A stretch of DNA of 64,000 nt from an uncultured Saprospiraceae bacterium (lineage in GTDB: Bacteria; Bacteroidota; Bacteroidia; Chitinophagales; Saprospiraceae). Under the pieces are notes generated by a model. That model was not told the origin of the DNA. It searched no databases and saw only the letters and a program-made list of their open reading frames with translations. The position numbers were made by a program, and so were the translations under genes. Shown here in pieces: positions 39,641 to 55,842 of this stretch. Within the stretch, counting starts at the first letter, position 1. Every line of letters starts with the position of its first letter. Location of the stretch: contig CALIZI010000050.1 of NCBI GenBank assembly GCA_938028705.1, positions 1 to 64,000 on the forward strand. The letters run 5' to 3'.

Positions 39641-41110
39641 TTAGGCCACCTCCAAAAAAGAAACCGCCTTCCCCTCCAACATAGAAACGCCCATCAAATA
39701 CTCATCCACACGCCGCGCAGCTTCGCGTCCTTCCGAAATCGCCCAGACGACGAGCGACTGTCCGCGTCGCATATCTCCGGCTACGAAAATATTATTGATA
39801 TTTGTTTGATAATCAGCATCTTGTACATTGCCACGATTGGTGAGCTTCGTGCCGAGTTGTTGGAGCATGCCTTCGTGTTGCGGGTGTATGTAACCGATAG
39901 CGAGTAGGGCGAGTTCGCAGGGAATTTCGCGTTGTGTGCCTTCGATTTCTTTGAAGGAAAAACGTCCTGTGTTATCGTCTTTTTTCCATTCGATGTCCAC
40001 GAGTTGAATGGCTTTTAGATTGCCGTCTGCATCGCCGATGAAGGCTTTGGTGAGTTGCGCCCAGTTGCGGTCACAGCCTTCTTCGTGCGAGGAGGAAGTC
40101 CGCAATTGCATGGGCCAGAGGGGCCAAGGCGTACTTTCGTCGCGGGTGTCGGGCGGTTGGGTGAGGAGTTCGATTTGGGTGATGCTTTTTGCCCGGTGGC
40201 GATTGGATGTGCCGACACAATCGGAGCCTGTATCGCCGCCGCCGATGACGACTACGTTTTTGTCCGTCGCCATCAATATTTCATTTTTAGGGATTTCATC
40301 GCCTGCTACGCGCTTATTATTTTGCTCCAAAAAATCCATCGCAAAGTGAACGCCATTGAGTTCGCGCCCTTCGATATTGAGGTCGCGCGGAATGGTAGAA
40401 CCACCGCATAGCACTATCGCATCGTAGTCGCGGCGAAGGTCATTTACATCCACATTTACACCGACATTCGCATTGGTTTTGAAGCGGATACCTTCGGCTT
40501 TCATCACTTGTAAGCGTCTGTCCAGCACCCATTTTTCCAATTTAAAATCAGGTATTCCATAGCGCAACAAACCGCCAATCCGCGTATTGCGCTCAAAGAC
40601 GGTTACGGTATGTCCTGCCTTGTTGAGTTGCGCGGCAGCCGCCAAACCCGCAGGTCCCGAACCCACGACAGCGACCTTTTTGCCGGTGCGTGTCACAGGC
40701 GGTTGCGGCTCTACCAAACCTTTTTCATATGCTACCTCCGCAATCGTTTTTTCAATCAACTCAATCGCCACGGGTGGACGATTAATCCCCAACACACACG
40801 AAGCCTCGCATGGCGCAGGACAAATCCGCCCCGTAAATTCCGGGAAGTTATTCGTCTCATTCAGAATGCCATAAGCCTCCGTCCAATCTTCCCGATACAC
40901 CGCATCATTGAACTCCGGAATGATATTTCCCAAAGGACAAGCACTATGACAAAAGGGCGTTCCGCAATCCATACACCGCGCGGCTTGTTGCTGCGTTTGT
41001 GTTGGATTGAGGTCTTCATAGACTTCTTTGTAATCCTTGATGCGCTGTTTCGCATTACGCGATTTGGGGAGTTCTCTGTCGTATTTTAAAAAACCCTTCG
41101 GATCTGCCAT
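39641..41110 (-). CDS. gltD: Glutamate synthase small subunit
   Basis: 489 residues from ATG 41110. N-terminal Fe-S part with CMDCGTPFCHSACPLGNIIP and GRICPAPCEASCVLG, FAD site VAVVGSGPAGLAAAAQLNKA (about residue 147) and NADPH site VVVIGGGDTGSDC (about 288). It supplies electrons to GltB for glutamate formation from glutamine and 2-oxoglutarate. GltB is on the same strand but starts its 3' end 10 kb upstream, past the defence-like island, so the normal operon is split. Confidence 0.96.
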   Translation of the reverse strand: MADPKGFLKYDRELPKSRNAKQRIKDYKEVYEDLNPTQTQQQAARCMDCGTPFCHSACPLGNIIPEFNDAVYREDWTEAYGILNETNNFPEFTGRICPAPCEASCVLGINRPPVAIELIEKTIAEVAYEKGLVEPQPPVTRTGKKVAVVGSGPAGLAAAAQLNKAGHTVTVFERNTRIGGLLRYGIPDFKLEKWVLDRRLQVMKAEGIRFKTNANVGVNVDVNDLRRDYDAIVLCGGSTIPRDLNIEGRELNGVHFAMDFLEQNNKRVAGDEIPKNEILMATDKNVVVIGGGDTGSDCVGTSNRHRAKSITQIELLTQPPDTRDESTPWPLWPMQLRTSSSHEEGCDRNWAQLTKAFIGDADGNLKAIQLVDIEWKKDDNTGRFSFKEIEGTQREIPCELALLAIGYIHPQHEGMLQQLGTKLTNRGNVQDADYQTNINNIFVAGDMRRGQSLVVWAISEGREAARRVDEYLMGVSMLEGKAVSFLEVA

Positions 41111-41158
41111 GTGCCAATGCTTAAATATTGAAATGATATAATGCGACAATGAATGAAC

Positions 41159-41221
41159 GTAAAATGATTTTAGTAAATCGTTCCGTGTAAGTATTTTAAC
41201 GATTTACAAAATCATTTTGCG
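41159..41221. repeat. Palindrome upstream of gltD
   Basis: CGTAAAATGATTTTAGTAAA (from 41159) is matched by TTTACAAAATCATTTTGCG (to 41221) with one small bulge. It lies between gltD and the island. Upstream of it are AATGCTTAAATATTG words like those at 34163. The remainder to 41442 is AT-rich with no gene. Confidence 0.75.
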
Positions 41222-41442
41222 TTTCACGAAATTTTCAATAAAAATAATGATTTTGTCGATAAAAATAAATAAAAAGCAAGTTTTATTAAAAATAAATTAT
41301 TTAAAGCGACTCATTTTGAAAATTTCATAATTTTTACGTTTTTTAGAAATGGAACATTTGCTTGGATACAACTTCTGAGGGAAATTATATTTTAGCAAAA
41401 TTGATAAAAAAGATATAATATGTGGTTTCGATTTTCCCTCCG

Positions 41443-41480
41443 GTTTTGAAAAATAACGAATATGACTTATCTTCGTGTAA
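41443..41480 (+). promoter_or_regulatory. Repeat R1: promoter part only
   Basis: TTTG (41445-41448), 19 bases, TATCTTCG (41468-41475). The sequence TTTTGAAAAATAACGAATAT is shared with the other copies. The leader diverges after the -7 box. The mini-ORF beginning ATG 41462 is extended to 29 codons here and its stop overlaps the start of the nuclease gene as ATGA (41548-41551). Confidence 0.75.
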
Positions 41481-41547
41481 ATTCATATCAGATTTTGAAT
41501 TATGACAAAACACCCCAATCTTGCATAAAACCACCCACCCAAAACCT

Positions 41548-42042
41548 ATGATATTATCATTCGACGAAATAGAAAGTTGGGAACAATTTGAGAACTTGAC
41601 TGCCTCTTATTTTGAATTACAAAACGGAATAGAAGGCAAAGGCAGCGTAAAAAATACCGTCAAACAATCGGGAAAAGGGGCGGACGGTGGAGTTGATATT
41701 TTGGTGGAACTCCAAATGGAAGACCTTGTCGTACCCTTTGAGCGTAAGTGGATAGTGCAGTGCAAATTTTATGACAGAGACCTCCGAAAATCAGATTTAT
41801 CAGAGGTAAATATCCCCACATTAATCAAACAATATAATGCAGACGGCTATTTACTGATTACAAAAAAAGGCGTAGTCAATACCCTCCAAAAATCCTTTGA
41901 TGAATTGGATAAAAATTGTAACTTGGGCTATCGTTATGAGATTTGGACGGATAGAACGTTTATCAATAAAATTCTTAGGACTGATAACGTAATTTTGGAA
42001 CAGTATTTTCCCAAATATTATAAACACAAATACGGAAAATAA
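41548..42042 (+). CDS. Mrr-like PD-(D/E)XK nuclease, system copy 1
   Basis: 164 residues from ATG 41548. The catalytic core is GADGGVDILVE (Asp, about residue 50) and KWIVQCKFYD (Q-x-K, about 71), as in Mrr_cat-type restriction nucleases, with VNIPTLIKQYNADGYLLITK after it. No separate DNA-binding domain is present. It is clearly homologous to the gene at 48097-48591. Followed at 33 bases by a TIR-like gene, in the same order as the second copy. Likely a nuclease effector of a two-gene defence system (inference). Confidence 0.82.
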   Translation: MILSFDEIESWEQFENLTASYFELQNGIEGKGSVKNTVKQSGKGADGGVDILVELQMEDLVVPFERKWIVQCKFYDRDLRKSDLSEVNIPTLIKQYNADGYLLITKKGVVNTLQKSFDELDKNCNLGYRYEIWTDRTFINKILRTDNVILEQYFPKYYKHKYGK

Positions 42043-42075
42043 TCAAGTGCTTAATCTTTATAAAAATATAAAATA

Positions 42076-42537
42076 ATGCGAGCATTTCTATCAGATTCAA
42101 CATCAGATAATGAACATTATTTAGTCTCTACACTCTCGGGCAGTCTGTGGGACAACCACTTCGCCGTTACTTCCACTTATGGCGAATCGGAGAGAAAGTT
42201 TGCACATTTGAGAATATTAAACACCAATCTCTTTGTAGGATTTATTTCTATAAATGGCAGTCAGCCCGATAAAGTTATTCACGAACATAGCATTGCAGTC
42301 GAAGGTCACATTCCTACCATCTTACTCATCGAAAAAGGGGTCTATCCGCTACCGCTTGGTTTTATCAATCATAATGTCGTCTATTTTGACCGCCAAAATC
42401 CGCAAGCTGCCATTGATTTCATCATAGAAAATACCAACAACAAAGAAAATAAAGCCACCGATGCCTTCGCATGGCTGTTCGGGGGTGAAATTGCTATCAA
42501 TTTATTGTCGAGAATGAGTAAGTCCAAAGCATCATAA
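42076..42537 (+). CDS. TIR-like partner protein, system copy 1
   Basis: 153 residues. MRAFLSDSTSDNEHYLVSTL matches the first strand and helix of TIR-like folds. RILNTNLFVGFISINGS and KVIHEHSIAVEGHIPTILLI fit the later core, with a Glu at the position where TIR NADases have their catalytic Glu. The last 25 residues (AFAWLFGGEIAINLLSRMSK) form a hydrophobic helix also present in the copy at 48594. The usual Tyr of the LSYS motif is Asp here. TIR-like is inference from pattern; a SLOG-type or other nucleotide-binding fold is possible. Confidence 0.6.
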   Translation: MRAFLSDSTSDNEHYLVSTLSGSLWDNHFAVTSTYGESERKFAHLRILNTNLFVGFISINGSQPDKVIHEHSIAVEGHIPTILLIEKGVYPLPLGFINHNVVYFDRQNPQAAIDFIIENTNNKENKATDAFAWLFGGEIAINLLSRMSKSKAS

Positions 42538-42539
42538 CC

Positions 42540-42711
42540 CCTAGCTCAACACTCTTGTGCCGACGAATGACGGCATCCACTCTGCGCCGCACCTACTCGC
42601 CACCTACCACCACAGATATTTTGAAAAATAACGAATATGACTTACCTTCGCACAAGTGAGCGATAGCTTTGAAGAAACAGGCTTGCTGATAGATATTTTT
42701 TAACCCAAGTT
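42540..42711 (+). repeat. Repeat R2 (full length)
   Basis: Upstream block with a small TGCCG/CGGCA hairpin and CGCACCTACTCGCCACCTAC, promoter TTTG (42620-42623)-N19-TACCTTCG (42643-42650), mini-ORF MTYLRTSER, and leader GATAGCTTTGAAGAAACAGG to TTTTTAA. Confidence 0.85.
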
Positions 42712-42752
42712 GAATTTACACATTGGTAATAAATCACATTAAATGAAAAAAT

Positions 42753-43184
42753 ATGGAAGGGATGCTGGAAGAAATATTGGAAACCACACATATTGAATTT
42801 GAAAAGAGTTCCTTCTTGTTTGATATAATTAGACATCAATCCGGGAAATTATATGTAGGAATCAAACAGACAATACACCAAGAAGATAATAATGAACATT
42901 CTATTAAGATTAACCCTTCAATAATAAGTGAGGTAATAGAAGTCCTTCAAAATTATGAGACAAAAATATTAGCAGAATAGACGCATGATAATAGTGTCAA
43001 TTATTTATCAAAAGAAGAAACTGATAAAATCGTGAAACGTTATCTTAAAGGAATTTCATTGCAAGAATTATCTACTCAATTTGGTCATGAAGAAAAAATA
43101 ATCGAAATGATATTAAGAAATAGAGATATTGAAATAGTATCAAATAAGGATAAAAGAAGAAAGTGGAGAAGAAGAAAAAAATAA
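42753..43184 (+). pseudogene. Small gene interrupted by an in-frame amber codon
   Basis: ATG 42753 opens a 75-residue frame (MEGMLEEILETTHIEFEKSS...) ending in TAG at 42978-42980. The same frame then stays open for 67 more codons (ETDKIVKRYLKGISLQELST..., an HTH-like stretch, then a basic tail RRKWRRRKK) to TAA 43184, with no good start of its own. Either a 143-residue gene carries a nonsense mutation or the TAG is read through. TAG serves as a normal stop elsewhere in the window. Function unknown. Confidence 0.6.
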
Positions 43185-43192
43185 CCATAACA

Positions 43193-43249
43193 GCTTCGCA
43201 CAGGTGAGGAATAGCTTTGAAGGAACAGGCTTATTGATAGATACTTTCG
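43193..43249 (+). repeat. Repeat R3: leader part only
   Basis: Begins at CTTCGCACAGGTGAG, the point of the -7 box, and continues through ATAGCTTTGAAGGAACAGGC to GATACTTT. The promoter half is missing. The conserved leader frame (NSFEGTGLLIDTF) stays open here into the start of the next gene. Confidence 0.8.
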
Positions 43250-43273
43250 CAGAAAGATTAAAATTGATAGAAT

Positions 43274-44227
43274 ATGTCAAAACGTAAAAACCGATTGAAC
43301 CTCACCAATTTTATAATTCCGAAAGATACCTTGTGGAAACTCATCATCGAAGGAGAGACAGAACCTTGTTTGCGTTTCTTTTTTCCAAAAATGGCAGCTC
43401 AAATTGATTTCTCCAAAGGTGTCCGCTTTCTGGGTGAGGAATTTTTCAAACTCTTTCCCGAACTAAATGACAGCCAAAACAGACGCTTGGATAAACTCAT
43501 CGAAGTCACCCTAAAAACGGGAGAAACTCAATGGTTGCTTATCCACATAGAAGTGCAGGGCTATGTAGATTCGGAATTTACAAAACGCATGTTTGAGTAT
43601 TTCTATCGCATCCTTGAGAAATATCAAAAACCCGTTACGGCACTTGCTATTTTTACGGATGACGACCCGAATTTTCATCCTACCGAACATCGGATATCTT
43701 GTTGGGGTACGGAAATGGTGTATCATTTTAACACCTACAAATTGGCAGAAAAAACACTGGTTGACTTTCAAGATAAAGATAATATATTTTCCATTATCAT
43801 GGAAACGGCATGGTACAATCTGCGGAAAAATAAGCCCGAAGATACAGCACTCTACGATATAAAACTTCAACTCATTCGCCGCTTTCTCGAAATGGGTTAT
43901 CCCAAAAATCATATCCGAATAATCTTGACTTTTCTTGGTTTTTACACTAACTTTAAGGATAAAATATTATCAGAAAATTTTGCAGCAAAAATGGATGAAA
44001 TAGCTTACAAACACGCAGGCGCAAAGGACATCAGCGAGGTCATCATGGAACAACTTGGCGACCAAATACGGGAAATTATGAGGGAGGATATTACTGAGGA
44101 AGTGACTGAACAGATGATTCAAATTCTGAAGTTGAAGAAAAAGGGCTTTACCGTCTCTGAAATCGCTGATAGACTCGAAATTCCGGTAGAGAAAGTTCAA
44201 CGTATCCTTGATAAATTGGACGATTAA
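43274..44227 (+). CDS. Rpn/YhgA-like PD-(D/E)XK nuclease
   Basis: 317 residues. RRLDKLIEVTLKTGETQWLL and IHIEVQGYVDSEFTKRMFEY (about residues 72-115) carry the PD-(D/E)XK residues (Asp, Glu, E-x-Q) of Rpn recombination-promoting nucleases, once called transposase_31. The C-terminal 45 residues form a helix-turn-helix (KKGFTVSEIADRLEIPVEKV). Rpn proteins cut DNA and have been linked to horizontal transfer and phage defence. A partial copy of its C-terminal part follows in the next gene. Confidence 0.85.
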   Translation: MSKRKNRLNLTNFIIPKDTLWKLIIEGETEPCLRFFFPKMAAQIDFSKGVRFLGEEFFKLFPELNDSQNRRLDKLIEVTLKTGETQWLLIHIEVQGYVDSEFTKRMFEYFYRILEKYQKPVTALAIFTDDDPNFHPTEHRISCWGTEMVYHFNTYKLAEKTLVDFQDKDNIFSIIMETAWYNLRKNKPEDTALYDIKLQLIRRFLEMGYPKNHIRIILTFLGFYTNFKDKILSENFAAKMDEIAYKHAGAKDISEVIMEQLGDQIREIMREDITEEVTEQMIQILKLKKKGFTVSEIADRLEIPVEKVQRILDKLDD

Positions 44228-44269
44228 ACCCGTACATCGAATTCATAATAAATTCACTCACACAAAATC

Positions 44270-44689
44270 ATGAAGCAAGCAACTTACAACCGTACACTCG
44301 ACATCAGCGAGGTCATCATGGAACAACTTGGCGACCAAATACGGGCGATTATGAAGGAGGACATCATTCAGGAAATCACCGAACAGGTGATGCAAAATAC
44401 CGTTTCAAATATGGAACAGCATGGTATGACTCCTCCGAAAATCGCCGAAATACTTCAAATCCCAATAGAGGAAGTCCAACGCCTTCTTTATGATACGACC
44501 GAAAAAGAACTGACGAATGCTCAACAAGAATGGGAAAAAAGTTTAAAGCGCATCAAGCATCGTCTGAAAGAAGCATCCATGCAATCGAAGGCGCATGAAA
44601 CTATTGAAATCTTCTCAAAAAACGAAGAAGAAACTCATTTGATAAAATCATTATTGTCAAAAATGAACGTCACATACCAACTCAAGTAA
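44270..44689 (+). CDS. Rpn C-terminal derivative
   Basis: 139 residues. Residues 11-40 (DISEVIMEQLGDQIRAIMKE) repeat the linker of the preceding Rpn protein; 46 bases are identical between 44029-44074 and 44301-44346. A similar HTH follows (MTPPKIAEILQIPIEEVQRL). The rest (AHETIEIFSKNEEETHLIKS...) is new and resembles antitoxin-like tails. It lacks the nuclease core, so it might compete for DNA or dimerise with Rpn (inference). Confidence 0.65.
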   Translation: MKQATYNRTLDISEVIMEQLGDQIRAIMKEDIIQEITEQVMQNTVSNMEQHGMTPPKIAEILQIPIEEVQRLLYDTTEKELTNAQQEWEKSLKRIKHRLKEASMQSKAHETIEIFSKNEEETHLIKSLLSKMNVTYQLK

Positions 44690-44710
44690 GTCCGCCGCAA
44701 CATCAGCATC

Positions 44711-44812
44711 CACACATATTTTGAAAATAACGAATATGACTTATTTTCGCACAGGTGAGGGATAGCTTTGAAGGAACAGGCTTGCTGATCGATACTTTTT
44801 AGAGTTTGTACA
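44711..44812 (+). repeat. Repeat R4
   Basis: CACATATTTTGAAAATAACG with TTTG (44720-44723)-N18-TATTTTCG (44742-44749), mini-ORF MTYFRTGEG, leader ending GATCGATACTTTTTAGA. It lies at the 3' end of the reversed ATPase+nuclease unit, so its promoter points against those genes. Confidence 0.85.
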
Positions 44813-44854
44813 GATATAAAGTTGATGCTGCCGCATTCGACAATATTTCTTCTC

Positions 44855-45349
44855 TCAAATAATCACAATCTCTGCCTGAATATCCAACCGAAATCCGGTA
44901 CTTCTGAAAAAAGCCAAGCCCTCCTCGTTGTCTATGTGTGCAAATTTCCTATGTTTTTTATTACAGGCAAAAGCCTTCTTCAATTTATATTGGCTGATGT
45001 CGTGGTTATCCGACAAAAAATCAATCGTGGAGCGTAACTGTTCTTTTGCCTGCGTTTGCCAACTTGCCCTTTGGTTCTTCAATTCAATGAGATATAAATG
45101 CCGTTCTGTGGTCAGCATGGCATCACATCTTCCTCTGTCTTTAAATTCGTGGTCTTGCAAGACACACTTATCTATTGCGGTAAAAACGACTTCGAGTGCC
45201 TCGTCATTTTTAACTGTTGCAATCCATTCTTCTTCGGGTGCTGTTGTTTTTGGAAATGCAGGTGTGTTGTCTTCATTATCGCATAAACCAAATCGCTTTT
45301 CGGTGATTGGAGGAGATTGACAAGCCGGATTAAAGAAGTTCAGGTTCAT
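44855..45349 (-). CDS. PD-(D/E)XK-type nuclease partner of the ATPase
   Basis: 164 residues. RGRCDAMLTTERHLYLIELK (about residues 72-91) holds a D-x(n)-E-x-K site of restriction-type nucleases. EALEVVFTAIDKCVLQ precedes it. No other domain. Its ATG overlaps the ATPase stop by four bases (ATGA), so the two are translationally coupled, ATPase first. Together they resemble ATPase+nuclease defence pairs such as Septu, though here the nuclease is not HNH. Confidence 0.72.
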   Translation of the reverse strand: MNLNFFNPACQSPPITEKRFGLCDNEDNTPAFPKTTAPEEEWIATVKNDEALEVVFTAIDKCVLQDHEFKDRGRCDAMLTTERHLYLIELKNQRASWQTQAKEQLRSTIDFLSDNHDISQYKLKKAFACNKKHRKFAHIDNEEGLAFFRSTGFRLDIQAEIVII

Positions 45350-46593
45350 AGTGATTGTTCTATTTCCAAAAGCTCATCAAATATTTTATTACCGTCTTTT
45401 AATGATTCGTTCAAATAATTTTTATCCGAAGGAATACCATAAGGACTTGGAAGTTTATGTATCATTCCGGTATGTTCATCTAATTGATATGCAGCGACTT
45501 CAGAAGAAAATATTAATGATTTTCGATTAATAATTTTTTCAATTCTTTCTATGAATTTAGCGGGATTATCTTTTTCGCTTTCTATTTTTTTACTCAAATA
45601 TCCAGCTTGAATGGCAATACTCAGGTAATTGACCAAATAAGGACTGTGCGTGGTCATAATTAATTTATTACCTTCGCTCATGTTGTTGTATTCCAACAGC
45701 TTTTTCAACATTTCCCATTGAGAAGACGGGAATAAATTTTGTTCGGGTTCTTCCACAATATTGATAAAAGCACTTTTGTTGAATTGTTTGGAAAGTGTAG
45801 AAATGGCAATCCGTTTTTGGTCATCTGTAAGATGCTTGTCACTCCATATAGATGCTACATTTTTTCTGAACCTTTCGAGTTCTTCACTACTTACCGGCTC
45901 TTTATTATCACTTTGTTTTTTTACGGAATTTGTCAAAAACCAAGATACCAAATACATCGGTACGGCAGATTGAAACCCGCTGGATGCTTCGGTGAGTTTT
46001 AATTTATAGCTATTGCCTATCAGATTGACAGTGTCATTGAGTTTATCATAATTCACGCCGACACCTTGTACGGGCAAATCCATAATGCCCTTGATTTCAC
46101 TTTTTGCATAGTCATACTCTGTTACAAATTCGACCAGTGAATCGGACACCAATTTCAGCGCACTTACATTTTTGACATTTGCGATAAAATTCCTTTCGGC
46201 AGGCACGTACATGATTTGTGGTAGCGGATAATCGTCATAATTATCAGCCGTTTTTATCGTTAATTTTCCGTTTTTATAGGTCAAATGAAAAGCCTCGCCC
46301 TCGTACTCAATTTCGGTAATTTCTTTTTTTCCTTTTTTAATAAAATAGTTTTCAATGCGATGATAGGATAAATATTGGTTTTTGAATCGCCCGTTTCGTT
46401 CAAAGTGTTTGATGTCATAATCACCTCTTCGGAGTGCTTTTTCTATCCACATCAAAGTCGAAATCAATTTGGCAACCGTACTTTTGCCACTGCCTTGATT
46501 CCCGATGAATACGGTTACTTTTTTTATATCAATCCAATCCTCTCCCACACCGTTTTGTATCGGTCCGAAATGTTTTACTTTTATTCTACTCAT
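45346..46593 (-). CDS. AAA_21/SMC-like ATPase of an ATPase+nuclease pair
   Basis: 415 residues. Walker A VTVFIGNQGSGKSTVAKLIS (about residue 26), signature region LTEASSGFQSAVPMYLVSWF (about 210), Walker B FINIVEEPEQNLFPSSQW (about 280) and His switch LIMTTHSPYLVNYL (about 310). A defence-type small SMC-like ATPase rather than a transporter. The only unit of the island on the minus strand; the R copies on both sides keep plus orientation. No consensus promoter was found directly upstream of ATG 46593. Confidence 0.82.
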   Translation of the reverse strand: MSRIKVKHFGPIQNGVGEDWIDIKKVTVFIGNQGSGKSTVAKLISTLMWIEKALRRGDYDIKHFERNGRFKNQYLSYHRIENYFIKKGKKEITEIEYEGEAFHLTYKNGKLTIKTADNYDDYPLPQIMYVPAERNFIANVKNVSALKLVSDSLVEFVTEYDYAKSEIKGIMDLPVQGVGVNYDKLNDTVNLIGNSYKLKLTEASSGFQSAVPMYLVSWFLTNSVKKQSDNKEPVSSEELERFRKNVASIWSDKHLTDDQKRIAISTLSKQFNKSAFINIVEEPEQNLFPSSQWEMLKKLLEYNNMSEGNKLIMTTHSPYLVNYLSIAIQAGYLSKKIESEKDNPAKFIERIEKIINRKSLIFSSEVAAYQLDEHTGMIHKLPSPYGIPSDKNYLNESLKDGNKIFDELLEIEQSL

Positions 46594-46731
46594 GTTTTGT
46601 TGAATTGTCTGAAAATCGCGTGTAAAGATAGGAATTTATATGATTAATGTAGTTAGCTTTTATCCGTATATACTCACTTACGAAGTCACGACGTAAGATG
46701 ATTGGCATAAACCGGTAGCATCTTATCCAGC

Positions 46732-46815
46732 TATTTTGAAAAATAACGAATATGACTTACCTTCGCACAGGGGAGCGATAGCTTTGAAGGAACAGGCTTG
46801 CTGATAGATACTTTT
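46732..46815 (+). repeat. Repeat R5
   Basis: TTTG (46735-46738)-N19-TACCTTCG (46758-46765), mini-ORF MTYLRTGER, leader to GATAGATACTTTTCAG. The upstream block seen in R2, R6 and R7 is missing; 46594-46731 instead holds unrelated AT-rich sequence with a CGAAGTCACGACGTAAGATG stretch. It faces the Uma2 gene. Confidence 0.85.
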
Positions 46816-46909
46816 CAGTTTTGCATAGATATGGAAAAATATATATAAGTGTATTAGTCTGTTTTGATTTTTGGGAATAAACCCTTAAATTACACAAAAA
46901 ATAGATAGC

Positions 46910-47476
46910 ATGACAGCAACAGCACCGATAACGAAAGAATTTTTGCTGACCATTGACGATTACTACAAAATGGCAGAGGTCGGGATTATCCCACATGATG
47001 CACGGGTAGAGTTGATTAATGGTAAAATACGATATATGAGTCCGATACACAGTCCACACGCACACATGACGGGCGAATGTGACGATGAACTCCATTACCA
47101 ACTCAGAGGGAAAGCGGTCATTCGGTGCCAAGCTCCGATACTCATTCCTGACGTTTCCTCGCCCGAACCGGACTTGGCAGTCGTAAAACTTCCCAAAAAA
47201 ACATATAAAAAACGACATCCCAAACCCGAAGATATTTACCTACTTATTGAAGTTGCGGAATCTTCATTTGAGTACGATACAGGAGAAAAATTACAAATGT
47301 ACGCCCTCGCAGGCATCCCCGAATATTGGGTAATAAATTTGAATGACTACAAAATCCATGTCTATCGTCAGCCCGACGGAGACAAGTATTTATTTGAGGA
47401 AATTATTGATGAAAATGGTATAGCGACATGCGAAACCATTGATTTTCAATTAAATGCAAAAGATATTTTCGGATAA
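46910..47476 (+). CDS. Uma2 family endonuclease
   Basis: 188 residues. VELINGKIRYMSPIHSPHAH (about 35-54), SSPEPDLAVVK (Asp, about 83) and DIYLLIEVAESSFEYDTGEK (Glu, about 106) with GIPEYWVINL are Uma2 hallmarks, a PD-(D/E)XK family abundant in cyanobacteria and some Bacteroidota. Function in cells is not known; they often travel in mobile or TA-like settings. It is preceded by R5 and followed by a perfect 36-base palindrome. Confidence 0.9.
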   Translation: MTATAPITKEFLLTIDDYYKMAEVGIIPHDARVELINGKIRYMSPIHSPHAHMTGECDDELHYQLRGKAVIRCQAPILIPDVSSPEPDLAVVKLPKKTYKKRHPKPEDIYLLIEVAESSFEYDTGEKLQMYALAGIPEYWVINLNDYKIHVYRQPDGDKYLFEEIIDENGIATCETIDFQLNAKDIFG

Positions 47477-47486
47477 AAAAAATACC

Positions 47487-47522
47487 ATACGTAGGGACAA
47501 GGCATGCCTTGTCCCTACGTAT
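47487..47522. repeat. Perfect 36-bp palindrome (CGTAGGGACAAGGC)
   Basis: ATACGTAGGGACAAGGCA and its exact mirror complement, with no loop bases, 10 bases after the Uma2 stop. An A-rich tract precedes it. Terminator or a dispersed palindrome. Confidence 0.85.
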
Positions 47523-47594
47523 GACGGCATAACGAACAAAATCATAGAGCTACAAAACTCGACCATTACGATTTGAATATAAAGCAAATAAAAT

Positions 47595-47744
47595 ATGAAT
47601 TACAAAATCTCATTTCGGGAAAGAGCGGCGCAAGCTATGATGCGCTTATCCAAACAGCCGCCGATCACCTTAGAACAGGCAAGAGAACAAGTCCAATGGC
47701 TGAAGAAAAACACCAAAACAAAGCACAAGAAACAGCGGGATTAA
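47595..47744 (+). CDS. Small basic ORF downstream of uma2
   Basis: 49 residues from ATG 47595: MNYKISFRERAAQAMMRLSK at the start and a Lys-rich end (KKNTKTKHKKQRD). The frame is helix-prone and basic. It sits in the Uma2 unit just before R6. Not recognised; a fragment of a larger gene or a small antitoxin-like protein. An overlapping frame at 47573-47839 runs into R6 and is not credible. Confidence 0.4.
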   Translation: MNYKISFRERAAQAMMRLSKQPPITLEQAREQVQWLKKNTKTKHKKQRD

Positions 47745-47758
47745 TTGATTTTGCGAAA

Positions 47759-47898
47759 GCTAATCCCCATAGCGCGGCACTCCCAGTCCGCGCCGCACCT
47801 ACTCGCCATACCTACCACCACAGATATTTTGAAAAATAACGAATATGACTTATCTTCGTGCAGGTGAGGGATAGCTTTGAAGGAATGGGCTTGCTCAT
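47759..47898 (+). repeat. Repeat R6
   Basis: Block GCTAATCCC ... GCGCCGCACCTACTCGCCAT, promoter TTTG (47828-47831)-N19-TATCTTCG (47851-47858), mini-ORF MTYLRAGEG, leader GATAGCTTTGAAGGAATGGG, then divergence. The hairpin seen in R2 and R7 is deleted. Confidence 0.85.
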
Positions 47899-47924
47899 GG
47901 CAAAAAAATTCAACAATCCAAATT

Positions 47925-47952
47925 TTAATTACCCCGAATTCGGGGTAATTAA
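47925..47952. repeat. Perfect 28-bp palindrome
   Basis: TTAATTACCCCGAATTCGGG and on to 47952, a perfect palindrome in the leader of the second Mrr unit. About 40 bases on is an imperfect stem TTTTAAAGTGGTC / GACCATTTTAAAA (47992-48021). A possible operator or RNA structure. Confidence 0.7.
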
Positions 47953-48096
47953 CGCAGAGGCAGGAGTAAATCGGTTCATAATGTCTGCCAATTTTAAAGT
48001 GGTCGAATTTGACCATTTTAAAAATTGAAATTAGCGGCAACTACAACATTCCGTCAAAAAAATTTGTATCTTGCAAAAAGACATCAATCAAATCAA

Positions 48097-48591
48097 ATGA
48101 AAAATTTATCTTTCAGTGAAATAAACGATGGCGACCACTTTGAAGATTTGGTCGCTGCATACTTCAGAGATTTGATAAATGATAATGATTCAAAAATTAT
48201 TAAAGTTGAGGTAAAAAAATCGGGGGTTGGAACAGACGGAGGAGTAGATATATTGGTGGAGTACCTTTTTACAGACGACATAAAAACATTCAAACGGCGG
48301 TGGGTGGTTCAGTGTAAATTTCTGAATGAAAATATCTCACCAAGTAAAATCAATTCTGTCAATATCCCAACTTTGATAAATTCGCGTGGTGCAAACGGAT
48401 ATTTGTTAGTTTGCAAGAAAAAACCAACCTCCAAACTAACAGATTTGTTTGAGAAATTGAATGAAAATTGCGATAGAAGATACCAATACATTTGCTGGGA
48501 TGGTTTAGAATTTCTGAGTAAAGTCAGACATAGACCAAATCTGCACGATGATTTTTTTCCAATTTACTCTACGACACAAAAAAGTAGTTGA
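48097..48591 (+). CDS. Mrr-like PD-(D/E)XK nuclease, system copy 2
   Basis: 164 residues from ATG 48097, the same length as copy 1. FEDLVAAYF, GTDGGVDILVE (Asp, about residue 48) and RWVVQCKFLNE (Q-x-K, about 70), then VNIPTLINSRGANGYLLVCK, all align with the gene at 41548. Overall similarity is moderate, so the duplication is old or the two were acquired separately. The TIR-like partner starts 2 bases after its stop, tighter than in copy 1. Confidence 0.82.
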   Translation: MKNLSFSEINDGDHFEDLVAAYFRDLINDNDSKIIKVEVKKSGVGTDGGVDILVEYLFTDDIKTFKRRWVVQCKFLNENISPSKINSVNIPTLINSRGANGYLLVCKKKPTSKLTDLFEKLNENCDRRYQYICWDGLEFLSKVRHRPNLHDDFFPIYSTTQKSS

Positions 48592-48593
48592 AC

Positions 48594-49085
48594 ATGAAAG
48601 CATTCTTATCATATTCATTAATACAGAGCGACTTATATCTCATCAGTTTACTCTCGCGGGAATTGCTCAATGTCGGTGTAACTTCCAAAGGAACGGTCTA
48701 TTCATCCGACCCAAGTGAGGAGTTGGTCACAATCACTAATTACAACATCAGAACCTGCGATTTATTTATTGGTATGCTCACCGGCGACGGAAGTATCCAC
48801 CAAAATGCAATGGTTTATCAAGAATGGGAAATTGCCATTCATTTCAATAAATCAAGAATTTTCTTAATTGAAGATACGGTGGATATCCCCGCCGAGTTTA
48901 CCGAGCCTTACCTGATTTATAATAGATATAATCCGAATCAGGTATTGCAACAATTACGAAATTTTGTACAAGAAAAAGAAACAGAAAAAAGGAATAAAAA
49001 TAATTTAGCCCTAATCGTAGGAGGCGCAGCTTTGATTGAATTAATGACGCATCTTTCAAAGCAAGAAAGTAAAGCCTACGGCTAA
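48594..49085 (+). CDS. TIR-like partner protein, system copy 2
   Basis: 163 residues. MKAFLSYSLIQSDLYLISLL is a good TIR start (FLSYS plus Asp), with RTCDLFIGMLTGDGS and MVYQEWEIAIHFNKSRIFLI, where the Glu after Gln sits at the catalytic position of TIR NADases. It ends in the same hydrophobic helix as copy 1 (NLALIVGGAALIELMTHLSK). Better conserved than copy 1. NAD cleavage on sensing infection would be the usual role (inference). An upstream TTG (48588) is possible as start. Confidence 0.68.
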   Translation: MKAFLSYSLIQSDLYLISLLSRELLNVGVTSKGTVYSSDPSEELVTITNYNIRTCDLFIGMLTGDGSIHQNAMVYQEWEIAIHFNKSRIFLIEDTVDIPAEFTEPYLIYNRYNPNQVLQQLRNFVQEKETEKRNKNNLALIVGGAALIELMTHLSKQESKAYG

Positions 49086-49256
49086 TCCCGTAGCGCAGCA
49101 CTCTTGTGCCGACGAATGACGGCATCCAGTCCGCGCCGCACCTACTCGCCATACATACCACCACAGATATTTTGAAAAATAACGAATATGACTTACCTTC
49201 GCACAGGTAAGCAATAGCTTTGAAGGAACAGACTTGCTGATAGATACTTTTTAGAA
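49081..49256 (+). repeat. Repeat R7 (full length)
   Basis: The most complete copy: GCTAATCCCGTAGCGCAGCA, hairpin TGCCGACGAATGACGGCA, CCGCGCCGCACCTACTCGCC, promoter TTTG (49171-49174)-N19-TACCTTCG (49194-49201), mini-ORF MTYLRTGKQ, leader ending GATACTTTTTAGA. It precedes the reverse transcriptase gene by 50 bases. Confidence 0.88.
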
Positions 49257-49305
49257 TTTAAAATATATAAAAATTTGTCTCTATGTATTTTGAAGTTAGT
49301 CTTTA

Positions 49306-50577
49306 TTGAGAAAAAATAAAAAACCATTGGAGACAGAGAATACCTTACTGGATAAAATATCATCAATTGATGCACTGAGGAATGCTTGGGTTCAACTAAA
49401 TAAAGAGAATGAAGATTCTCGTGGACTATCAGGAATTACAATTAGAGATTTTTCCAACTCATTAGAATCCAATTTGCGACAATTAAGCGAAGATATTAAA
49501 AATGGATCTTTCAAATTTATGCCAACGAGAGCGGCAATAATAAAAAAAGATAATGGCAAATTCAGACCATTACAGATTCCGGAGGTGAGAGATAGAGTTG
49601 TTTTAAAATCGTTAGCAATTTTACTTGAAGAAGAATTAAAAGACATTTTATCTATTAGTGAAGGTGTTAGTTATGCGTACCAGAAAGGTAAAGGGGTTAG
49701 AGAAGCGGTGTTGACAATGAAGTCGGAATTCCAAAATGGGGGTAAGGTAATTTTAAAGGCAGACATAATTAACTTTTTCGAGGAGGTCAATAAGGATAAA
49801 TTACTTGAACAATTTGTCTATCCAACTATTTCTGATAAGTCAGTCAAATATTTGATAAATGGAGCTATGAATCAAAAATTAAAAGGACTGAATAGAATCA
49901 AAAAAGAATATAGAAATCTTTTTAAAAATGCCGGAATAGGAATTCCACAAGGGAATCCGCTTTCTCCCTTGTTATCAAATGTGTATCTAACTGATTTTGA
50001 TTCTTATCTAAAAGATTTAGGTTATTCATTGATAAGATACGCAGATGATTTCATTGTAATATTTAATTCGGAAAAACAAGCTTTAGAAGGGTATAAGAAA
50101 ATATGCACCTTTCTTGATGAAAGGTTTAAACTGAAAATTCATCCCCTGAATGAAGGAAATGGTAAAACACAAATAATTAATCCTCAAGAAAAAGAAGTGT
50201 CTTTTTTATCCATAAGATTTGACGGAATCAATATATATCCCAGTAAAGATTCCTTGGGAATATTGAAAGGGAGAATCAGGTCAATTGTTAAAAAAGGAGA
50301 ATTAAATAACCAGATGTTTGATGAAATATATGGAACAATTGAAAAATGGATTGCAATTTATTCTTATCTGGACATTGAAAGATACTTTAAAACAGTTGAT
50401 TCCTTTTTGATTACTCAATTGGTTAAAAAATTTGGGAAAAAATATTACAAAACAACTAAGTGTAAAGACTTGGCTCAAAATAGAAGAGAGAAGCAATATG
50501 ATAAAAGTAAATCAAGTTTTTGGAGAAATCCTAACTTGAAAAAAATATTACCAAATTTCATACGAAGAAAAAAATAA
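49306..50577 (+). CDS. Reverse transcriptase of a defence-type module
   Basis: 423 residues. RT motifs in order: FRPLQIPEVRDRVVLKSLAI (about residue 86), VILKADIINFFEEV (catalytic Asp, about 150), GIPQGNPLSPLLSNVYL (about 212), LIRYADDFIVIF (YADD, about 245) and an FLSIRFDGI block (about 300). A 100-residue basic C-terminal part follows; no maturase, HNH or integrase domain. TTG 49306 is the only plausible start before motif 1. The next gene, 8 bases on, encodes a caspase-like protein. Group II-like or unknown-group RT; not an intron, since no flanking ribozyme is seen. Confidence 0.88.
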   Translation: MRKNKKPLETENTLLDKISSIDALRNAWVQLNKENEDSRGLSGITIRDFSNSLESNLRQLSEDIKNGSFKFMPTRAAIIKKDNGKFRPLQIPEVRDRVVLKSLAILLEEELKDILSISEGVSYAYQKGKGVREAVLTMKSEFQNGGKVILKADIINFFEEVNKDKLLEQFVYPTISDKSVKYLINGAMNQKLKGLNRIKKEYRNLFKNAGIGIPQGNPLSPLLSNVYLTDFDSYLKDLGYSLIRYADDFIVIFNSEKQALEGYKKICTFLDERFKLKIHPLNEGNGKTQIINPQEKEVSFLSIRFDGINIYPSKDSLGILKGRIRSIVKKGELNNQMFDEIYGTIEKWIAIYSYLDIERYFKTVDSFLITQLVKKFGKKYYKTTKCKDLAQNRREKQYDKSKSSFWRNPNLKKILPNFIRRKK

Positions 50578-50585
50578 AAAGATAT

Positions 50586-51155
50586 ATGAAGGAACTTTTA
50601 ATTCTGCGAATAACCAAAGATGTACCAGACGAATCAGTAGCGGAGATGTATTATCATTCAAAACACTATGGTATAAATCCAACAATTGAAGATGTTTCCA
50701 ATATTGGAGAATTAGAAACAGTATTAACTGGTAACAAATATGATTACATCTACTTTGCTGGTCACGGAGATGAAACATGTTTTTCAGATAATAAACTATT
50801 TACTACATCTTGGTCAACGATAGGAGAAATAATTTGCAGAACTGATTGCTTAAATCCTGATTCGATTGTTATGCTATATTGCTGTAAAGGTGGAATCAAT
50901 ACCGTTGCTTATCAGTTAATAGCTGAATGTGACAAAATATCATATATATGTGGAGCTAAACAAAATATGAGAAATATTGATTTGATAATTGGATTTAACG
51001 TCTTTATGTATTCAATAGAATCTCGAAATATTGATCCGGTAATTGCAGCTCAAAAATCTGTAGCGGCGACTGATATTCGATTTGAATGTTTTGATAGAAT
51101 TAGTGTAGAATGCAATCCGCACTATCATCAAAACTATTGTAAAACTTGTGCGTAA
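50586..51155 (+). CDS. Caspase/CHAT-like protease partner of the RT
   Basis: 189 residues. KYDYIYFAGHGDETCFSDNK (His in AGHG, about residue 59) and DSIVMLYCCKGGINTVAYQL (Cys in CCKGG, about 100) form a caspase-type His-Cys pair in the spacing seen in CHAT and related clan CD peptidases. The rest (SYICGAKQNM, AAQKSVAATDIRFE) fits the same fold. Small for a CHAT protein and without sensor repeats, so it probably relies on the RT as sensor. Adjacent to the RT with 8 bases between them. Protease assignment is by motif only. Confidence 0.65.
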   Translation: MKELLILRITKDVPDESVAEMYYHSKHYGINPTIEDVSNIGELETVLTGNKYDYIYFAGHGDETCFSDNKLFTTSWSTIGEIICRTDCLNPDSIVMLYCCKGGINTVAYQLIAECDKISYICGAKQNMRNIDLIIGFNVFMYSIESRNIDPVIAAQKSVAATDIRFECFDRISVECNPHYHQNYCKTCA

Positions 51156-51267
51156 TATGGGTGAAAATGATAACGACAGAATAATCTTAATCACTATATT
51201 TACACTAATAATTCTTCAAATCGAAACCAATTTCCAATTCAAAATCGGCTAAAATTTTGTGCCTCCC

Positions 51268-54200
51268 TCACGCAGCCACCAACCTCACCTTCTCACTCCG
51301 CTTCTCCAAAACCGCCTTATAATCCCGAGGCATCACCTTCACAAAATCGTGTTTCGTATTCTCCCAATCTTGCAGCATAGCCAGCGCCCGTTTGCTACCT
51401 GTATATCGGAAGTGATTGCGGATAAGTTCTTGCAGGTCGTCGTAGTCTGTGGAAGCCATTGGGTCGAGGTCCACCATTTCCGTATTGCAATTTTTCTGAA
51501 AAGTATTTTTCGGATTATAGACATACGCAATACCGCCACTCATACCGGCGGCAAAATTGCGTCCGGTTTCGCCCAAGACCGCTACTACGCCGCCTGTCAT
51601 ATATTCGCAGCCGTGGTCGCCGATGCCTTCGATGACCGCTTTTACGCCCGAATTTCTCACTGCAAAACGTTCGCCTGCCATGCCCATGATATAGGCTTCG
51701 CCGGAGGTTGCGCCGTAGAGTGCCACGTTGCCGATGATGATATTTTCGTGGGCTTCAAAGGTCGCGCTGCGGTCGGGATGCACGATGAGTTTTCCGCCCG
51801 ACAAGCCCTTGCCAAAGTAATCATTCGACTCGCCTTCGAGGATAAAACTCAGGCCCCGCGCCACAAAAGCCCCAAAACTTTGCCCCGCCGAACCTCTGAA
51901 TCGAAACTCAATTGTATCGTCGGGCAGCCCCTCGCCTTTATAGCGTTTCGTGACCTCGTTGGAGAGCATCGCGCCCACTGCACGGTCGGTATTTTTTATC
52001 GCAAATGTGGACTCCATTTTCTTCCCCGATTCCAATACATTTTTCGCCTGACGAATCAGTTGCACATCCAAAACATCCTGAATATCATGTACTTGCGGCA
52101 CTTTTTTATATTGACCGACATTATCATCCACAGGTTCTTTATAGAGAATCGGACTCAAATCCACTTGCTTATATTTCCAATGTTCGATATTTTTATTTGC
52201 TTTGAGCAATTCCACTTTTCCAATCATTTCATTGACCGTTCGGAAGCCCAATTCTGCCATAATTTCGCGTAAATCCTGCGCCAAAAAATGGAAAAAATTG
52301 ATGACATGCTGCGGGTCGCCTGCGTAACGCTTGCGGAGTTCGGGGTCTTGCGTGGCGATACCGACGGGGCAGGTATTGAGGTGACATTTTCGCATCATAA
52401 TACAACCTTCGACCACAAGTGCGGCGGTTGCCACGCCCCATTCTTCTGCGCCCAAAAGTGCGGCGATAGCGATGTCGCGTCCGGTGCGAATTTGCCCGTC
52501 CGTTTGTACGGTTACGCGGTCGCGGAGTTTATTTTTGACGAGGGTTTGGTGGGTTTCTGCCAAGCCGAGTTCCCACGGAAGCCCCGCATGACGAATCGAA
52601 GTCAAGGGCGAAGCACCCGTACCGCCATCGTGACCGGAAATGAGAATCGCATCTGCCTTCGCCTTCGCCACGCCCGACGCAATGATGCCGACTCCGGCTT
52701 TGGAGACGAGTTTGACATTGATACGTGCAGCGCGATTGGCGTTTTTGAGGTCGAAAATGAGTTGCGCCAAATCCTCAATCGAATAAATATCGTGGTGCGG
52801 TGGCGGCGAAATCAAACCCACGCCCGGCGTAGAATGTCGCACCCTTCCAATCCAATCATTGACCTTATGACCGGGCAATTGTCCGCCTTCGCCGGGCTTC
52901 GCGCCTTGCGCCATTTTGATTTGCAATTCGTCGGCATTGGTGAGGTAATACGCCGTCACGCCGAAGCGTCCCGAAGCGACTTGTTTGGTGGCAGAACGTT
53001 CCGAATCCCCATTTGGTTTTGGGTCAAATCTGTCGGAATCTTCGCCGCCTTCGCCGCTATTACTTTTGCCGCCGATACGGTTCATCGCAATGGCAAGCGT
53101 GGTGTGCGCTTCATGCGAAATAGAACCGAAAGACATCGCGCCCGTACAGAAACGTTTGAGGATTTCTTCGACGGGTTCTACCTGTTCTATCGGAATGGCT
53201 TCGGTTTTCCTAAAGGTCAATAAACCTCTCAATGTCAATGCTTTGCGCGTTTGTTCATTGATAAGTTTTGCATATTTTTTGTAAATATTATAATCATTTT
53301 TTCGGGTACAATATTGTAATAAATGAATGGTTTGCGGATTAAAAGTGTGGATTTCGCCACGATGTTTCCATTGAAAAACACCGCCCGTTTCGAGTTGCGA
53401 ATTGGGTATTTCGACAGGCGGAAAAGCTAATTGATGACGACTCAAAACTTCCTTCGCTATCCCATTGAAATCAATACCCGAAATGCGGGAAATTGTTCCT
53501 TTAAAACACTTGTCCACCACTTCTTCATTCAAACCCAAAATCTCAAAAATCTGTGCGCCTTTATACGATTGCAAAGTCGAAATACCGATTTTCGACATGA
53601 TTTTCAATAAGCCTTTTCCAATCGCTTTGATGTATGTTTGAATGAGGTCGTCGAGGCTATATTTTTCTTCAAAAAACTGAATCCGCTTCAATTCGGCAAT
53701 TGTCGAAAAGGACATATACGGATTTATCGCATCTACACCGTAGCCAATCAGGGTCGCAAAATGATGCGTTTCGCGCACATCACCCGCCTCCACTACGATA
53801 GACACTTTATTGCGAATCCCTTGCCGTATCAGGCTGTGATGAATCGCGCCCGCCGCCAATAGCGAAGGTATCGGCGCATGATTTGTGTCCACCTTTTTAT
53901 CGGACAAAATAAGGATATTCGCGCCATTGTGAACGAGGTCTTCGGCAGTCGCTCGCATTTGGTCAATCGCTGCGTCTAATCGTCCTTTCTGACCGCCTGT
54001 TTTGAAGACCATATCTACCACGCCCGATCTAAAATTCGGGTGGTCAATATCGCGGATTTTACTCAAATCTTCATTGGTCAAAACGGGTTGGTCGAGGTGA
54101 ATAAATCGCGCATGTTCTGCCCCCGAATCCAAGATATTTGACTTGCTGCCCAGCTTGGAATAGAGCGACATAATCGCCCGTTCACGTATCGGGTCTATCG

Positions 54201-55842
54201 GCGGATTGGTGACTTGTGCAAAGAGTTGTTTGAAGTAATTGGCGAGGTGTTGAGATTGATGAGAAAGCACCGCCAAAGGCGTATCCGAACCCATCGAACC
54301 AATCGGGTCTTTTTTGGATTTCAACATTGGACCAATCAACACTTTCAGGTCTTCTTTTGTAAATCCAAATAATTGTTGATGCCTGAGTAATGTCTTTTCA
54401 TTTAAATGAATATTATTAACTTCTCCTATTGCTAAATCCTTGATATTCAGTTTATTTTCTCTTAAAAATGTTTTGCAATCCACACGATTACAAATCACTT
54501 CTTTGACTTCTTTATCGTGAATAATGCGCCCTTCACTCAAATCCGCAATCAACATTTTGCCGGGTTGTAGCCGACCTTTTTTCACTATTTTCGCAGGGTC
54601 AACGGGCAATGCGCCGACCTCCGAAGCGACCACCAAACGGTCATCATTGGTCATAAAATAACGGGCGGGTCGCAAGCCATTTCTATCCAATGTCGCACCG
54701 ACCAAAATGCCGTCTGTAAAGCAAATCGCGGCGGGTCCGTCCCAGGGTTCCATGATGTTGTTGTGGTATTCGTAAAAGTCGCGTTTGTAGTCGGGCATTT
54801 GAGGGTCGTGTTCCCATGCTTCGGGAATCATCATCATGAGTGCGTGAGGCATCGTACGCCCACTCATCACCAGAAATTCGAGAACATTATCGAAGTTGCC
54901 GGAATCCGATAATTCCTTGCCACAAATCGGTAGTAATTTCTCAATTTCATCTGCCGTAAACAGGGTCGATTCGAGCAATTTTTCCTTCGATGCCCACCAG
55001 TTTTTATTGCCCTGAATGGTATTGATTTCGCCATTATGCGCGATATAGCGGAAGGGCTGCGCGAGCTTCCATTTCGGAACGGTATTGGTCGAAAATCGGG
55101 AGTGAATGAGGGCAATCGCTGATTTGAAAGACTGACTTTGGAGGTCGGGGAAGTAAGGGCGGAGTTGGTGGGTGGTCAATTGACCTTTATAAATAATTGT
55201 TTTATACGAAAAAGAAGTAATATAAAATGCGTCCTTAGATTGCGGAAATGTCTTGTGTATATTATGTGTGGAAAATTTGCGAAGCACAAATAAACGGCGT
55301 TCCAAATCTTTCTTATCCATTGGTTTATAGGGTTTTACAAAGACTTGTTCCATGCGCGGCTCTACGTCAATCGCCGAGTCGCCGAGTTCTTCGTGGTCGG
55401 TTGGTACTTTGCGATAGCCGAGCAATTCAAAACCGAGTTCGTCGATATAATCATTGAACAGGGTGCGACATTGACTGCGAAGATTGCGGTCATTGGGCAT
55501 GAAAACCATGCCTACGCCATAGTTACCGTATTCGGGCAAATCAAAGCCAATTTCAAGGGCTTTGCGTTGGAAAAATTCGTGGGGCATTTGGGTCAGAATC
55601 CCTGCACCATCGCCCGTATTCGGCTCACAACCACAAGCACCGCGATGCTCCATGTTGCTCAACATAAGCAAGGCATCTTCGATGAGTTGGTGCGATTTTT
55701 CGCCTTTTAGATTGGCGATTAAACCTGTGCCGCAGGCGTCTTTTTCTAATTGAGGTGTGTATAGTGACTGACGGTTGACTCCGATAGCTATCGGAGACGG
55801 TTGACGGTCAAGGGTACTCGGATTTTGTTGGTCGTATTCCAT
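51268..55842 (-). CDS. gltB: Glutamate synthase large subunit
   Basis: 1524 residues. Class II amidotransferase domain with nucleophile in EKDACGTGLIANLKGEKSHQ (Cys about residue 37), FMN/FMN-binding synthase domain (ISGHDGGTGASPLTSIRHAG) with the 3Fe-4S region CHLNTCPVGIATQDPELRKR, and the C-terminal beta-helix (GNVALYGATSGEAYIMG). The N-terminal 36-residue stretch is encoded partly by an 18-base palindrome flanked by 9-base direct repeats. The gltD gene should follow directly downstream, but the island intervenes. Confidence 0.97.
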   Translation of the reverse strand: MEYDQQNPSTLDRQPSPIAIGVNRQSLYTPQLEKDACGTGLIANLKGEKSHQLIEDALLMLSNMEHRGACGCEPNTGDGAGILTQMPHEFFQRKALEIGFDLPEYGNYGVGMVFMPNDRNLRSQCRTLFNDYIDELGFELLGYRKVPTDHEELGDSAIDVEPRMEQVFVKPYKPMDKKDLERRLFVLRKFSTHNIHKTFPQSKDAFYITSFSYKTIIYKGQLTTHQLRPYFPDLQSQSFKSAIALIHSRFSTNTVPKWKLAQPFRYIAHNGEINTIQGNKNWWASKEKLLESTLFTADEIEKLLPICGKELSDSGNFDNVLEFLVMSGRTMPHALMMMIPEAWEHDPQMPDYKRDFYEYHNNIMEPWDGPAAICFTDGILVGATLDRNGLRPARYFMTNDDRLVVASEVGALPVDPAKIVKKGRLQPGKMLIADLSEGRIIHDKEVKEVICNRVDCKTFLRENKLNIKDLAIGEVNNIHLNEKTLLRHQQLFGFTKEDLKVLIGPMLKSKKDPIGSMGSDTPLAVLSHQSQHLANYFKQLFAQVTNPPIDPIRERAIMSLYSKLGSKSNILDSGAEHARFIHLDQPVLTNEDLSKIRDIDHPNFRSGVVDMVFKTGGQKGRLDAAIDQMRATAEDLVHNGANILILSDKKVDTNHAPIPSLLAAGAIHHSLIRQGIRNKVSIVVEAGDVRETHHFATLIGYGVDAINPYMSFSTIAELKRIQFFEEKYSLDDLIQTYIKAIGKGLLKIMSKIGISTLQSYKGAQIFEILGLNEEVVDKCFKGTISRISGIDFNGIAKEVLSRHQLAFPPVEIPNSQLETGGVFQWKHRGEIHTFNPQTIHLLQYCTRKNDYNIYKKYAKLINEQTRKALTLRGLLTFRKTEAIPIEQVEPVEEILKRFCTGAMSFGSISHEAHTTLAIAMNRIGGKSNSGEGGEDSDRFDPKPNGDSERSATKQVASGRFGVTAYYLTNADELQIKMAQGAKPGEGGQLPGHKVNDWIGRVRHSTPGVGLISPPPHHDIYSIEDLAQLIFDLKNANRAARINVKLVSKAGVGIIASGVAKAKADAILISGHDGGTGASPLTSIRHAGLPWELGLAETHQTLVKNKLRDRVTVQTDGQIRTGRDIAIAALLGAEEWGVATAALVVEGCIMMRKCHLNTCPVGIATQDPELRKRYAGDPQHVINFFHFLAQDLREIMAELGFRTVNEMIGKVELLKANKNIEHWKYKQVDLSPILYKEPVDDNVGQYKKVPQVHDIQDVLDVQLIRQAKNVLESGKKMESTFAIKNTDRAVGAMLSNEVTKRYKGEGLPDDTIEFRFRGSAGQSFGAFVARGLSFILEGESNDYFGKGLSGGKLIVHPDRSATFEAHENIIIGNVALYGATSGEAYIMGMAGERFAVRNSGVKAVIEGIGDHGCEYMTGGVVAVLGETGRNFAAGMSGGIAYVYNPKNTFQKNCNTEMVDLDPMASTDYDDLQELIRNHFRYTGSKRALAMLQDWENTKHDFVKVMPRDYKAVLEKRSEKVRLVAA
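55771..55805. repeat. 18-bp palindrome with 9-bp flanking direct repeats inside gltB
   Basis: CTCCGATAGCTATCGGAG at 55779-55796 is flanked by ACGGTTGAC at 55771-55779 and 55797-55805. The layout is like an insertion with target duplication. The unit codes for SPIAIGV near residue 18 of GltB. Confidence 0.7.

Follow-up and report, generated by a model that had tools for sequence, protein, structure and literature searches.

Introduction

The described enzymes most like the reverse transcriptase (RT) family analysed here, in both sequence and fold, are the RTs encoded by group II introns, such as those of GsI-IIC and E. rectale, and G2L4, an RT with a role in break repair. To our knowledge, few group II-like RTs lack introns, and for most of them no function is known. 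The active site of G2L4 is given as YIDD (PMC4244168). UG17 is defined by SLATT together with a 137-nt ncRNA (PMC12632851), DRT2 jumps on a 3-nt ACA (PMC11100668), and CHAT has been published as part of a DGR target (PMC10907252).

The RT described below lies in a window of 64,000 nt from an uncultured Saprospiraceae bacterium, where a sequence-only reading had noticed it next to a protease-like gene and had likened the two to defence RTs. Unlike the group II intron RTs, its family comes without intron RNA and scores below the cut-off of the group II maturase model TIGR04416, and where G2L4 has YIDD, all six family members have YADD.

Results

An AT-rich island between gltB and gltD

In the window, a 10-kb AT-rich insert (41150-51267) parts gltD from gltB, and GC content is 0.30 and 0.32 in the RT and CHAT-like genes against 0.47 and 0.50 in gltB and gltD. 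The features, in window positions, are:

39641-41149, minus strand: gltD, left edge of the insert (TIGR01317, 686 bits; GC 0.504)
41444-41475, plus strand: island repeat copy, short (97% to the RT-proximal copy)
42538-42702, plus strand: island repeat copy (92%)
43194-43247, plus strand: island repeat copy, partial (91%)
44710-44820, plus strand: island repeat copy (88%)
44855-45349, minus strand: PDC-M29B, PD-(D/E)XK-like partner of the next gene (234 bits)
45346-46593, minus strand: PDC-M29A AAA ATPase, candidate defence system (592 bits)
46728-46840, plus strand: island repeat copy (88%)
46910-47476, plus strand: Uma2-type putative endonuclease, PDC-S03 (PF05685, 1.5e-31; PDC-S03, 68 bits)
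47783-47898, plus strand: island repeat copy (91%)
48097-48591, plus strand: Mrr-like restriction endonuclease (PF04471, E 2.3e-05, 24.9 bits, cut-off 21)
48594-49085, plus strand: small protein (DUF4062 at E 0.042 only)
49085-49305, plus strand: region 5´ of the RT with an island repeat copy
49306-50577, plus strand: group II-like RT (TTG start, 423 aa, GC 0.301)
50586-51155, plus strand: CHAT/caspase-like orphan protein (ATG start, 189 aa, GC 0.319)
51268-55842, minus strand: gltB, right edge of the insert (NF008730, 1747 bits; GC 0.474)

Judged by its genes (PDC-M29A and PDC-M29B, PDC-S03 and the Mrr-like protein), the island in which the window RT sits is probably defence-like. The PDC-M29 candidate defence pair is full length (44855-46593). 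A pair consisting of an Mrr-like nuclease and a small protein occurs twice, in diverged form, near the two ends of the insert (41521-42537 and 48097-49085).

The island repeat is found between genes at seven places, with a core of ~80 nt and copies 88-97% alike, some of them partial, and its last copy ends 30-50 nt 5´ of the RT. With 40 of 121 candidates scored, the region directly 5´ of the RT has 17 matches in its own genome, of which seven lie in the contig of the window, itself included, and the other 10 cover its first ~74 bases only; at the same depth of scoring, the repeat core occurs in this island only. A structured ncRNA was rejected for the repeat, since z lay between -0.86 and 0.77 in six pieces and both-sided changes were seen in none of 17 consensus pairs among five copies.

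An intact RT, group II-like in sequence and fold

The RT gene is an intact ORF whose product carries the core motifs D153-IIN-FF, P214-QGNPLSP and YADD and matches Pfam RVT_1 at E 1.6e-22, as the sequence-only reading had recognized from the motifs. The same reading had seen no intron, maturase or integrase parts, and this was borne out: Pfam finds neither an integrase nor an endonuclease domain in the window RT, and the maturase domain GIIM reaches 14.6 bits (E 0.033), below its cut-off of 23. No intron RNA was found: nothing in 41100-51400 of the window matches Rfam at E<=1, and the loci of five relatives gave two gathering-level Rfam matches, neither of them an intron. On the NCBIfam model TIGR04416, the window RT scores 201.5 bits and all six family RTs score 196-250, below the cut-off of 300. 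Of the five viral RTs taken for comparison, four lie above that value (388, 450, 366 and 337 bits) and L011 lies below it (182.5).

By sequence as well as by fold, the window RT resembles group II RTs. A structure model built from the six members (mean pLDDT 85.4) is predicted to comprise the full fold, including a thumb-like C-terminal part; its best fold match is G2L4 (Z 33.0, 363 residues, 3.1 A), with GsI-IIC (Z 31.9) and a DGR RT (Z 31.1) as further matches. When a profile of four members was compared by sequence with solved structures, the group II RT 7uim_D scored 147.5 bits, GsI-IIC 129.6, G2L4 119.8, Cas6-RT-Cas1 112.5, a DGR RT 51, DRT2 45 and UG15 33.

UG17 is the best UG model in PADLOC for the family (131-149 bits; 131 for the window RT). 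Viral RTs score 64-177 bits on this model, and because group II-type viral RTs stand both above the family (L008 at 177, L009 at 159) and below it (83-90, with L060 at 83 and L061 at 85), the family is a possible member of UG17 on this score. SLATT is absent at E<=1 from both neighbours of the window RT, and none was seen among the scanned flank neighbours of its relatives. DRT2, DRT3a and DRT4 were rejected, the window RT reaching 67.9, 65.6 and 31.3 bits against NCBIfam cut-offs of 390, 200 and 450; on the DRT2 model, E 1e-15 is reached by four members, with 60-77 bits (cut-off 390). A retron is unlikely on the two retron models compared, St85 (73 bits, cut-off 235) and Ec67 (30 bits, cut-off 450), with no Rfam match. 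As for CRISPR-associated RTs, no Cas1 fusion is present, the RT ending after the thumb-like part, and neither of the proteins encoded next to it matches Cas1.

Six RTs form a distinct lineage

In a pattern scan across 84,980 species genomes, two relatives of the RT came up, in Draconibacterium aestuarii (locus L002) and Dysgonomonas mossii (locus L003), with 65% and 62% identity to the window RT. Whole-genome searches added three more, in G211, G674 and G1132, with 38, 38 and 35%; the RT loci of these distant relatives are L006, L068 and L071. The family is rare: with the query genome counted, it was found in 2 of 395, 1 of 150, 3 of 393, 1 of 128, 2 of 345, 1 of 87 and 1 of 6 genomes, in samples that overlap and with the best few candidates per genome scored. 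The active-site motifs, YADD included, are intact in all six RTs, whose loci are unrelated and whose identity to the window protein is 35-65%. Searches of viral contigs for relatives gave other RTs or nothing, phages searched with the L071 RT gave <=37% identity in 10 records, and among the plasmid matches listed RT identity was below 30%, most being annotated as group II.

We built a tree of 43 rows from the six family RTs and 37 of 55 viral RTs, 18 near copies or short sequences having been dropped by eye; the references thus all come from viral contigs, with no labelled UG17 sequence among them. The six Bacteroidota RTs make up one clade (support 100/100, stem 1.72). The group II proteins fall in another group, of 28 rows (99/98), and eight DGR RTs in a third (100/99). 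Four branches are long, and the family, L011 and the 28-row group join without clear order. The six RTs are a small, distinct group II-like lineage of Bacteroidota. The sequence-only reading had held that grouping with group II introns, together with varying downstream genes in relatives, would speak against it. On this the outcome is divided: the RT is group II-like and the downstream genes differ, but the RT falls in a clade of its own, outside the group II-containing and DGR rows.

Changing neighbours of the relatives

The genes 3´ of the RT vary, being CHAT-like in the window, HEPN in L002, ArdA in L003 and others elsewhere. The HEPN-type protein of L002 lies 70 nt 3´ of the RT (PDC-S64 89, HEC-08 87 and DUF3644 84 bits). 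In L003, the RT stands between TraQ and ArdA, with ArdA downstream and convergent; here (4490-6923 of L003) a conjugative transposon carries the RT as an insertion, 67 nt past traQ, and a terminator-like hairpin lies directly 5´ of its TTG start. Among the distant relatives, L006 has the Zorya II parts ZorA2 (305 bits) and ZorB2 (242 bits) plus the type I restriction protein HsdR, L068 has an HEPN/nucleotidyltransferase protein ~1.7 kb 5´ of the RT, and L071 has its RT by recA, with no defence gene recognized among the flank genes read; the flank scans covered some of the flank proteins. No sequence is common to the window, L002 and L003 5´ or 3´ of the RT, apart from short chance matches. These settings of the relatives, beside a HEPN gene, Zorya and type I restriction genes or the genes of a conjugative transposon, suggest an RT that serves in defence and travels, with neighbours that change.

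A CHAT-like protein next to one RT

The ORF that begins 8 bases past the RT stop encodes a protein of 189 aa with FAGHG (H60) and LYCCKGG (C99/C100), so the spacing and the motifs noticed earlier both hold, and the two genes are probably on one transcript. Its motif order, strand-AGHG ... strand-CC with H60 and C100, fits that of the CHAT proteins of the same genome. The protein has no Pfam, PADLOC or curated NCBIfam match, with PF12770 absent even at E 10. A profile from the genome's own CHAT proteins, taking in 18 of 20 matches, gave 4.4 bits, a score equalled or passed by 2 of 2000 shuffles, and a second CHAT profile gave 2.1 bits (32 of 2000); L077 and L093 were left out of both. In hhalign (probability 25%, against 1.4% with the other profile), ATHG is the counterpart of AGHG, and the cysteine of CHAT that of C100; a single-sequence structure model was unusable (pLDDT 31.9). 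From its motifs, the protein is a likely but weakly assigned CHAT/clan CD protease. It shares the motif order of CHAT (PF12770) conflict-system effectors but is shorter, and no sensor domain was seen. DNA synthesis linked to a caspase-like effector is not described for a non-DGR RT in the open-licence literature searched.

No homologue of the CHAT-like gene was found by tblastn beside the RTs of the five relatives (loci of 11-18 kb, nothing beyond E 1.0) or in the plasmid, phage and viral-contig collections searched, and among 395 Bacteroidota genomes the gene was found in one, the source genome itself. Because none of the relatives carries the gene beside its RT and no homologue was found in these searches, RT plus CHAT is a single case and at most a candidate system. 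The likeness to defence RTs that the sequence-only reading had drawn thus survives for a stand-alone RT in a defence-like context, and falls for a conserved RT-protease pair.

Direct repeats 5´ of the RT in distant relatives

In L006, L068 and L071, two identical direct repeats of 88, 118 and 97 nt lie 5´ of the RT (at 9.6-10.1, 8.96-9.5 and 7.2-7.7 kb of the respective loci), with periods of 381, 380 and 348 nt and the second copy ending 20-70 nt before the RT. The repeat sequences differ among the three loci and the geometry is alike. Neither of the two closest relatives, L002 and L003, has such a pair within 4.5 kb, and none was found in the window branch. As a control, upstream repeats were present in eight of 55 viral RT loci (51 of the 55 have at least 800 nt upstream). 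In seven viral DGR pairs examined, 115 of 120 mismatches fell at A in the RT-proximal (template) copy; the identical blocks of L006, L068 and L071 have 0 mismatches and no A-directed pattern. The order repeat, spacer, repeat, RT in the distant relatives resembles that of a DGR, and a DGR RT is a close fold match, but the family has PQG..SP where DGR RTs have an SQ motif and forms a separate clade.

An A-run/TTGC element between the repeat copies looks promoter-like by eye when set beside the Bacteroidota promoter consensus; it occurs in nine of 73 loci, all of them copies of the L006, L068 and L071 places. Read in tandem, the repeat and spacer (A-B) of L006, L068 and L071 have 117, 129 and 111 stop-free codons, a length reached in 31, 0 and 60 of 1000 dinucleotide shuffles; openness is almost the same on the antisense strand (68, 7 and 137 of 1000). 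By analogy with DRT2, the stop-free tandem frame hints at a gene that may be joined across the repeat, and the repeat-bounded region may be an RT template of a new type. The likeness to DRT2 and its synthesis of the neo gene applies to the distant relatives only, as an upstream region that could yield tandem open-frame cDNA; DRT2 differs in jumping on a 3-nt ACA, against repeats of ~100 nt here.

Discussion

Our preferred reading, which we hold tentatively, is that the window RT is a stand-alone, intron-less enzyme of a rare lineage, mobile in defence islands, that acts against phages, with the CHAT-like protein as its effector in this genome. The lineage would travel in defence islands and mobile elements and would most likely act in anti-phage defence. 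On infection, the RT would make DNA from some template or primer, and this product, or its loss, would trigger a response. In the source genome, the CHAT-like effector protease would then cleave cell proteins and stop growth, which is the weakest step of the model; in relatives, other genes, such as that for the HEPN protein, or none, would stand in the effector's place. The intact RT, the lack of intron RNA, the monophyly, the defence-gene context, the low GC and the 8-base gap suggest this reading. Against it count the CHAT-like gene missing beside all five relatives, the weak CHAT assignment and the place of L071 by recA, and a late arrival in an AT-rich island could also end up 8 bases from the RT.

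It is possible, if somewhat doubtful, that the RT works alone, for example by template-free or snap-back synthesis or in break repair like G2L4, and that the CHAT-like gene arrived next to it as a cassette with no relation to it. A lone RT would be in keeping with the lack of a conserved partner gene in all five relatives and of conserved upstream sequence in the window, L002 and L003, and with the top structural match, G2L4 with a snap-back substrate (Z 33.0 versus 31.9 for GsI-IIC). However, the 8-base spacing and the similarly low GC of the two genes suggest a joint unit, the active site is YADD here and YIDD in G2L4, and structure does not show function.

We think it unlikely that the family copies a template formed by the repeat-bounded region 5´ of the RT, an A1-B-A2-RT layout that is clear in three distant relatives. 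In that case, a switch of template across the repeat would yield (A-B)n cDNA in tandem and might join the parts of a small gene, in the way DRT2 builds neo; the window branch would have lost or moved its template. All three distant relatives do have identical repeats of similar period just before the RT, with the common A-run/TTGC element and the stop-free tandem frames of 117, 129 and 111 codons. On the other side, the repeat pair is lacking within 4.5 kb in both closest relatives, part of the open frame is present unjoined, the antisense strand shows almost the same openness, there are no clear start codons and no significant RNA fold was found. Less likely again is a wider proposal that the six RTs are a new DNA-writing defence class, in which the repeat-bounded template of the distant members would give rise to cDNA joining a split gene for a small membrane protein, and the window branch would have swapped this output for a CHAT protease.

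It is highly improbable that the RT is a functionless remnant of a group II intron whose ribozyme was lost, for although all six have a group II fold and TIGR04416 scores of 196-250 bits, their active-site motifs are intact at 35-65% identity and unrelated loci, and they fall below the cut-off of 300 that four of five viral comparison RTs exceed (337-450).

The RT lineage is the more interesting part of this locus, and the RT-CHAT pair is a candidate only. A separate lineage situated in defence islands adds a candidate antiviral RT beyond the well-studied UG groups. The repeat-bounded template of the distant relatives, if true, would be a second, independent route to the building of genes or repeat DNA by reverse transcription, and the RT-CHAT pair, if functional, would tie DNA synthesis to a caspase-like effector.
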